Below, in pieces: positions 62,757-64,000 of a DNA stretch of 64,000 bases. The notes beneath the pieces were generated by a model, which was not told where the DNA came from, made no database searches, and was given only the letters and a program-made list of their open reading frames with translations. The stretch spans positions 62,001 through 126,000 of the forward strand of contig NZ_SOAZ01000006.1 of assembly GCF_004364155.1 (NCBI RefSeq), written 5' to 3'. The position numbers and the translations under genes are program-made. Source of the stretch: Fonticella tunisiensis (GTDB taxonomy: Bacteria > Bacillota > Clostridia > Clostridiales > Caloramatoraceae). How positions within the stretch are numbered: the stretch's first letter is position 1; every line of letters begins with the position of its first letter.

Positions 62757-63635
62757 TTATTCAATGTTTTGAACCTGTTCTCTTATTTTTTCAAGCTCAC
62801 TTTTAATTTCAACCACTAATTTCGTTATGTATAGATCATTTGACTTTGAGCCAATAGTATTTGTTTCCCTATTCATTTCCTGAATTAAGAAATCAAGCTT
62901 TCTTCCAACAGGTTCACTGCTTAAAAGTGAATTTACAAACTGATCTATGTGGCTTTTAAGCCTTACGATTTCCTCAGTTATATTGCACTTATCTGCAAAA
63001 AAAGCTATTTCATTTAAGAGCCTTGATTGATCCAATTCTATATCCTTTAAAAACTCCGACACTCTCTGGGAAATTTTCTCCCTATACTCCTCGACTACTC
63101 TGGGCGACCTTTCTTCAATATCCAAAACTAACCTGTGAATAAAAGCACATCTTTCCTGTATATCCCTGCTTAATTTTAATCCTTCTCTGCTCCTCATGTC
63201 AATAAACATATCCAGGGCTTCATCCAAGGCCCTTGAAAGAATTTCCCATGTTTTTTCAAGATCTTCTTCCTTATTTTCAACGGTTATGACTTCCGGTGAT
63301 TTAGCCAATAGCGATACAGCAATATCATCCTTCAGGTTAAACCTGTCCCTAAGCATTATAAAGGCATCATAATAGGCTTTTGCAAGCTGTTCATCGACGT
63401 TAATGGATATATCGTCATCGCTAAATTTTTCCTGATTTATGTACACATCTATCTTACCACGAGATATCCTTGACGCAATATATTTCCTTATATTGTCCTC
63501 AAGTGCATAAATCTGTTTTGGAAGCCTTATATTGATATCCAGATACCTGTTATTAACAGCTTTAATCTCCACATTAAAGGCTTTGCCATCCTCCTCTGTA
63601 CTGCCCCGTCCATATCCTGTCATGCTTTTAATCAT
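62757..63635 (-). CDS. YicC/YloC family endoribonuclease
   Basis: YicC-family proteins are endoribonucleases (E. coli YicC degrades RyhB); YloC of Bacillus belongs to the same family. The 292-residue protein starts [11 protein letters not shown], the family hallmark, and has the conserved [17 protein letters not shown] segment (about residues 22-38), a long helical middle and the C-terminal [24 protein letters not shown] (core about residues 253-272). The start follows GGTGGGTGAAAAAA and avoids a 10-codon upstream extension. It heads the long right-hand operon, with a promoter about 70 bp upstream. Confidence 0.95.
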
Positions 63636-63702
63636 TTTTTTCACCCACCAGTTTATTTTCTCCATTTAATTTCTTTAATGTATTATTTCTTAATTCTTTC
63701 TC

Positions 63703-63732
63703 ATTATACCTAATTATATCATAATCTTTCAA
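63703..63732 (-). promoter_or_regulatory. Sigma-A promoter of the yicC operon
   Basis: TTGAAA (63727-63732), an 18-bp spacer and TATAAT (63703-63708), about 65 bp before the yicC start. It could drive the whole run of minus-strand genes from yicC to at least rpoZ. Confidence 0.65.
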
Positions 63733-63826
63733 GCTTATTTTATAAATTAACTCGTTGTGCTAAATAAATTTGAAGATCAGCGCTGCGATAAAAATATATT
63801 TCATTCACCAGCACGCTTAACAAAGA

Positions 63827-63908
63827 AGTTCTAAGGCTTGAGATTTGAAAAATCAAGAACTTTCGTTAAACTCGCCTTGCTTAAGTCACGAAAGTTCCAG
63901 GATTTTTC
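63827..63908. repeat. Compound inverted repeat with two mutually exclusive stems
   Basis: GAAAAATC and GAACTTTCGT (63847-63854 and 63857-63866) are mirrored by ACGAAAGTTC and GATTTTTC (63888-63897 and 63901-63908), an 18-bp imperfect stem with a 21-nt loop. AAGTTCT (63827-63833) can instead pair with AGAACTT (63856-63862) of the same left arm. It lies between the partial right-end gene and the yicC promoter. It may be a dispersed repeat or a regulatory RNA. Confidence 0.55.
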
Positions 63909-63924
63909 TGCTTAACAAAATAAA

Positions 63925-63945
63925 AGCCCATGAAATTCACGGGCT
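63925..63945 (-). terminator. Terminator of the right-end gene
   Basis: AGCCCGTGAA paired with TTCATGGGCT (one G-U pair, tiny loop) followed by TTTATTTTG on the minus strand; it overlaps the stop codon of the partial gene at the window edge. Confidence 0.7.
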
Positions 63946-64000
63946 AAAAATCAATGCTGCATATTTTGTTCATTGCCTTTTTTAGTGTTTCTTCACTTGA
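63944..64000 (-). CDS. C-terminal end of an unidentified gene (partial)
   Basis: The last 18 codons of a reading frame entering from the right, ending ETLKKAMNKICSIDF before a TAG stop and a terminator. The coding call rests on the open frame and the hairpin right at its stop. Too little is visible to name the protein. Confidence 0.5.
   Translation of the reverse strand, partial: SSEETLKKAMNKICSIDF

Follow-up and report, generated by a model that had tools for sequence, protein, structure and literature searches.

IS982-family insertion sequences end in AC(N)6T(N)5TT according to the accessible part of PMC7335449, and the family listing given there includes ISCth1, with a 7-bp duplication, and ISClce1, with a length of 1157 bp. 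The Clostridium stem-loop families Clop-1 (93 bp) and Clot-1 (74 bp) are reported in the excerpted text of PMC2267715, and GCGAAGC-type hairpins are extraordinarily stable as DNA according to the excerpt of PMC10527192. We here analysed a repeat upstream of yicC in a 64,000-nt stretch of the Fonticella tunisiensis genome (the window), which is a relic of a non-autonomous DNA transposon (MITE) with ends from an IS982-family element of the same genome. Taken alone, the window copy is an ordinary broken MITE. Our overall reading, to which we assign a probability of roughly 0.78, is that the palindromic core of this MITE with IS982-family ends comes from a wider family of hairpins, which is conserved at the tip and was spread as DNA by some enzyme. 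The features of the locus are as follows.

62757-63665, minus strand: yicC (Pfam YicC-like_N, 1.4e-49; YicC-like_C, 3.3e-48)
63703-63732, minus strand: promoter-like site between element and yicC, TTGAAA, 18 nt, TATAAT, 11/12, from the sequence pattern
63743-63749, no strand: surviving right-hand target-site sequence TAAATTA, which fits TAANTTA, the left one being lost (sequence and end analysis)
63750-63762, plus strand: terminal inverted repeat ACTCGTTGTGCTA (end analysis; comparison with the IS982 family end as given in the accessible part of PMC7335449)
63750-63911, minus strand: left-truncated MITE copy, element bases 91-253 of 253 (alignment to the intact copy in L015; other copies 90-96% identical; model score 72.9 bits)
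63848-63866, no strand: one arm of the core stem (inverted-repeat search)
63867-63887, minus strand: apical loop, degenerate relative to the wide consensus TTGTYTGAGCGNAGCGAGTTTA (sequence compared with cross-phylum tips)
63888-63906, no strand: other arm of the core stem (inverted-repeat search)
63911-63912, no strand: truncation junction, the end of element homology, with 90 bp of outer left arm lost (alignment to the intact copy)
63925-63945, minus strand: intrinsic terminator closing the upstream gene, separate from the element (terminator prediction)

An earlier note on this DNA had described an inverted repeat with a 21-nt loop upstream of yicC, and this repeat is real: the core arms are 19 nt long, 79% complementary and 21 nt apart, and the repeat folds better than dinucleotide shuffles on the plus strand (z -2.97, 1 of 200 shuffles as good) as well as on the minus strand (z -4.51, 0 of 200). 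The alternative pairing described for the same arm, AAGTTCT (63826-63832) with AGAACTT (63856-63862), is also present, and the sequence noted on both sides, GCTTAACAAA, does occur twice, at 63815-63824 and at 63910-63919, where it spans the truncation junction. The extent of 63780-63945 proposed at that time has to be corrected, since the homologous stretch starts further left and covers 63750-63911. The statement that no ordinary terminator explains the repeat needs a qualification as well, since the intrinsic terminator lies within the proposed interval, if separate from the repeat. The upstream gene, which ends beside this terminator, has a translation resembling an aminotransferase as judged by eye. 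Alignment with the intact copy in L015 showed that the window copy has lost its first 90 bp together with the target copy on the left, an incompleteness that explains its score of 72.9 bits. The two states proposed by the earlier note can be traced to the same event: in intact copies the left arm pairs with AAGTTCT of the right arm, and since truncation took that left arm, the inner AGAACTT is the sole partner left. The truncated copy at yicC is probably inert.

In the host genome (3.1 Mb, 64 contigs), a DNA search with 63780-63920 gave at least 40 long matches at 90-100% identity, self included, from 40 scored of 195 first-look candidates, which establishes a dispersed repeat. The core pattern, at up to 3 mismatches, occurs at 34 places (reversed control 0), and a covariance model built from 11 cores yielded 94 matches at E up to 0.01, of which 12 are, by eye, the same copy on the opposite strand. 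Far from lacking a second copy, which had been named as an outcome against the earlier note's proposal, the genome thus holds about 82 core copies, 50 of which score 98 bits or more. From aligned copies and end analysis, the intact element is a 253-bp palindromic MITE with inverted ends ACTCGTTGTGCTAG, and a search for the terminal inverted repeat that allowed up to 2 mismatches gave 126 places, against 1 for the reversed control. For the end analysis 30 copies were fetched; in 18 both ends could be recognised, and in the other 12 at least one could not. Perfect 7-bp target duplications with the consensus TAANTTA flank 12 of the 18, and mean identity of the duplications is 6.44 of 7 within copies vs 5.43 between copies, a value reached by 0 of 10000 permutations. 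The same ends additionally delimit other size classes, one of about 146 bp that lacks the core tip and one of about 300 bp with longer ends. The host copies are young, with a mean core identity of 0.95. Beside one of them, at L120 1333-1434, lies a purine riboswitch.

A candidate partner for these ends is present in the same genome. An element of about 1.16 kb on contig C36 (locus L068, 1171-2327) has the same ends as the MITE and is flanked by a TAATTTA duplication. It encodes a 265-aa frame that scores over the cut-off, with E 3.1e-78, against NF033520, the model of the IS982 family transposase. A second copy on C39 is 94% identical with an open frame of 323 aa, and a third carries stop codons. 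By inspection, the full-length end ACTCGTTGTGCTAGTTC in the host genome fits the IS982 family end 5'-AC(N)6T(N)5TT, as the accessible part of PMC7335449 gives it. MITE and insertion sequence have only about 17 bp in common, by inspection, at their ends. The earlier suggestion of a mobile miniature repeat is therefore borne out by the number of copies and their terminal inverted repeats, by the target duplications and by the IS982-family element as a partner, and from the common ends and the common 7-bp duplications we infer that an IS982-type transposase most likely mobilised the MITE in the host genome. Among the relatives listed with the covariance-model search none belongs to the same genus, and no empty site came to light. 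Next to the IS982-family element, at L068 2343-3549, lie two frames that, judged by eye, seem to be the two halves of a split IS110-type transposase.

The core extends beyond this genome. A nucleotide search of 60 relatives listed weak core matches in G002, G009, G018 and G020, its tally of 5 of 60 apparently counting the host genome as well, and the covariance model found the core in 27 of 147 related genomes and 15 of 42 genera, host genome included; at most 25 places were scored per genome, so that counts are lower bounds. In 11 aligned cores, the hairpin, two asymmetric internal loops and the tip are retained, while the stems change on both sides, with at least one double-sided change in 20 of 33 pairs. 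Stem and outer arms are genome-specific in every core-bearing genome compared. Among the core copies examined outside the host genome no target duplications were found, and mobility there is therefore argued from copy number. In G087, 13 placed copies, too small a number for a firm result, gave no clear replication-strand bias by eye, with the origin not located. Individual loci showed a core copy between 5S and 23S rRNA genes (G005, L098 1501-1610), four full and one partial core match on the same strand within 1.6 kb (G063, L102 1-1612), and a copy flanked on both sides by one terminator-like stretch of about 30 bp, resembling by eye a long target duplication (G009, L160). The outer arms of G018 copies (e.g. 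L127, L171), like GGNNCTGTTGC, resemble IS6-family ends; IS6 ends for this family were rejected, since G018 gave no match to the IS6-type transposase domain PF13610.

The apical tip crosses phyla. A scan of 257 Gb of genomes, one per species, for the motif TTGTYTGAGCGNAGCGAGTTWA recovered at least 116 stretches in several phyla, where about 0.5 chance matches are expected by our own estimate for uniform composition. Record titles among the matches listed include Clostridia, Burkholderiales, Pasteurellaceae, Neptuniibacter, Legionellaceae, Flammeovirga and Saprospiraceae, and additionally Calditrichaeota, Gastranaerophilales, Bdellovibrionales, Geobacteraceae, Selenomonas and Halanaerobiales. 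Only the loop was used in the scan, and yet in the stem test, for which 125 of 127 tip matches were used, a run of at least 6 stem pairs lies beside the loop in 73 of the 125, vs 3.6% when flanks of different matches were cross-paired. When up to 2 mismatches were allowed, all 20 genomes chosen for an exact match carried the tip, at between 1 and 124 places each, against 0 or 1 with the reversed pattern. Its distribution is patchy, with presence in 15 of 398 genomes of a phylum-wide sample, and viral contigs contain 48 tip stretches, only 11 of them distinct. With the seven inner bases left free, the fixed flanks of the tip were matched in 20 of 30 high-copy or related genomes and had no match in the other 10. 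In the host genome the motif occurs at 13 places at up to 2 mismatches, and most young copies, the window copy included, have a degenerate tip. The tip is therefore not universal, and its degeneration in the host would fit a loss of its role after the IS982 ends took over.

Within the tip, two base-pairs form a mini-stem. Across 88 tips from nine genomes, counted from the rows listed, with those of G147 (mostly G-C at the outer pair, a few mismatched) left out, the outer pair is Watson-Crick in 83, where 33.4 are expected from column frequencies, and the inner pair is C-G in 86. G-C, C-G and A-T all occur at the outer pair, even within one genome (33 C-G, 5 G-C, 2 A-T and 3 others in G165). 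The triloops are mostly GNA and AAA, both of which use sheared pairs, and C(GNA)G is the motif of an extraordinarily stable DNA mini-hairpin. We lean towards a DNA form of the hairpin because of this resemblance of the tip to stable GCGAAGC-type DNA mini-hairpins. The tip TTTGAGCGAAGCGAGTTT in the apical loop, as in the L120 core, forms a mirror repeat, for which tandem sheared G.A pairs could be the reason.

The wider family is most likely a hairpin repeat spread in trans and carried in the host by IS982 ends. In the mechanism we propose, an IS982-type transposase would act on the common ends ACTCGTTGTGCTAG and duplicate 7 bp of a TAANTTA target, the MITE body being one long imperfect palindrome whose core belongs to the wider dispersed hairpin family. 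In that family the tip TTGTYTGA-xC(GNA)Gx'-GAGTTTA is the conserved part, while the stem sequence varies from genome to genome. The hairpin may spread as single-stranded or as cruciform, extruded DNA, with some enzyme recognising the tip; recognition via a mini-hairpin tip rather than via stem or ends would leave stems and arms free to drift with their pairing retained. In the host lineage, the hairpin would have gained IS982 ends and with them passed to ordinary transposition. Among the 100 of 183 neighbouring ORFs scanned no partner gene stood out: the 139 Pfam families matched have at most 3 members each, and none is enriched. That the family as a whole is an undescribed mobile hairpin DNA family of several phyla, recognised by its tip and copied by an enzyme between sites and lineages, with IS982 ends gained in the host lineage, is a tentative proposal that we place somewhat short of even odds.

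Several other explanations have to be weighed against this. The wider family could consist of RNA, with transcribed copies whose hairpin terminates transcription, stabilises RNA or binds a protein, and with selection keeping the pairing of each copy, an explanation we consider doubtful. It would accommodate complementary outer arms in each copy without target duplications, and in its favour convergent genes flank 12 of 24 G018 copies and divergent genes none, by crude ORF calls. The cross-phylum set (genome_contigs) has 21 convergent, 14 divergent and 39 tandem contexts among 74 classed of 127 (31 dropped at contig edges, 22 inside crude ORFs), a weaker convergent excess than in G018, and neither set reveals a clear orientation to transcription, tandem copies numbering 6 and 4 in G018 and 26 same vs 13 opposite across phyla. 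Mismatches of the G.T type exceed A.C in several sets, which would suit RNA; the counts are 83/55 in genome_contigs, 31/7 in G087, 11/13 in G009, 8/8 in G139 and 1/12 in viral contigs, with the tip placed in 14 of 24 G018 copies, so that they lean to the tip strand in some sets, not in others, and settle neither DNA or RNA nor the strand. The intact element folds as one long imperfect hairpin with z -8.96 as RNA, but DNA does as well with z -9.22, and the GCGNAGC contained in the tip recalls the GCGAAGC-type hairpins whose extraordinary stability as DNA is stated in the excerpt of PMC10527192. Rfam also speaks against RNA: on 20 loci (19 model matches and one MITE copy) the core has no match, only rRNA and a purine riboswitch being found beside copies, and the window at gathering score and 63600-64000 at E up to 5 gave only chance-level matches below the cut-offs. 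As to the window itself, a two-state regulatory RNA controlling yicC, as the earlier note considered, is hardly credible: two alternative pairings are possible, but they are a by-product of truncation in a copy that is one of about 82 and lies upstream of the yicC promoter-like site, and the same repeat is found near unrelated genes. A yicC riboswitch or leader RNA was rejected, since a single yicC-linked copy would be expected and the repeat is dispersed at about 82 copies.

Pairing specific to each copy could also arise without selection, if arm-to-arm copying (quasipalindrome correction, template switching) kept the arms complementary. Arms do score higher against their own partner than against that of other copies in G018 (35.9 vs 18.9), G087 (51.6 vs 27.5), G009 (34.0 vs 22.1) and G134 (40.4 vs 24.3), with at most 1 of 2000 permutations reaching such values, which is the pattern such copying would yield. 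The preference is weak in G136 (42 of 2000) and was not found in G020 (110) or G139 (607), and flanks outside the arms displayed no copy-specific complementarity in the same permutation test. In the host genome it is absent or slight (71 to 172 of 2000 permutations, 27 of 29 copies used), as expected from the young age of the copies. Mismatches in the middle arms and the two internal loops are, however, retained in nearly all copies and across genera, and since correction should erase them, we regard this route as unlikely, although it may apply to the outer ends. A REP family of the ordinary kind, mobilised by a Y1 transposase (RAYT or IS200), is, finally, quite improbable, even though dispersed palindromes in high copy number, a hairpin with conserved features and a patchy spread are in keeping with it. 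Y1_Tnp is found in 22 of 27 core-bearing vs 89 of 120 other relatives (tallied by eye), no Y1_Tnp match is listed for G022, G079 and G114, each with at least 23 scored copies, GTAG or CGTC stands at 7 of the 140 arm feet, a frequency that hardly exceeds background, and the best 25 of 139 neighbour families include no Y1 family. We therefore keep to a MITE relic with IS982-family ends and a core from the tip-conserved hairpin family, spread as DNA.

A literature search by sequence and topic, with subscription journals mostly outside its scope, found no description of the tip or the MITE. By itself the MITE would add a new member to a known kind of element, and the tip-defined family would be a variant of dispersed extragenic palindromes. 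What could be of interest is that a single apical motif of 22 nt, in which a mini-stem of two base-pairs covaries and the middle base is free, sits on stems unrelated to one another in several phyla and reaches 124 places in one genome. Should its enzyme or a binding protein come to light, this would account for a class of palindromes outside genes that is left blank by annotation, and the tip would serve as a sequence handle for counting and tracing them. The IS982 case would also show how a repeat can change its means of movement.

Among the systems compared, integron attC sites carry conserved R and L boxes at the base and a variable tip, and were rejected by inspection of the sequences listed for 80 of the 116 stretches, since the hairpin family has a conserved tip and a varying base. 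REP sequences (GTAG/CGTC), as far as the accessible part of PMC3733652 describes them, are likewise extragenic dispersed palindromes with tens to more than 100 copies, genome-specific stems and a patchy distribution across phyla; unlike the repeats here, with about 110-350 bp, they measure 20-40 bp according to the same text. In contrast to REPs, the hairpin family has no end tag, its conserved part is the tip, and it has no link to a Y1 transposase. Clop-1 and Clot-1, compared by description only and as the excerpted text presents them, are structured intergenic repeats in clostridia as well and could be related. With GCGAAGC-type DNA mini-hairpins the family has in common a C(GNA)G or C(AAA)G tip with a covarying closing pair, although these are known as a physical structure and not as the mark of a repeat family. 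The host element also resembles IS982-family insertion sequences and MITEs, as given in the accessible part of PMC7335449: the ends start with AC and fit AC(N)6T(N)5TT, the duplication has 7 bp as in ISCth1, and the insertion sequence has about 1.16 kb and a DDE transposase of the IS982 model. The body of this MITE, however, is no internal deletion of the insertion sequence in its genome, and its hairpin family occurs elsewhere without IS982 ends.
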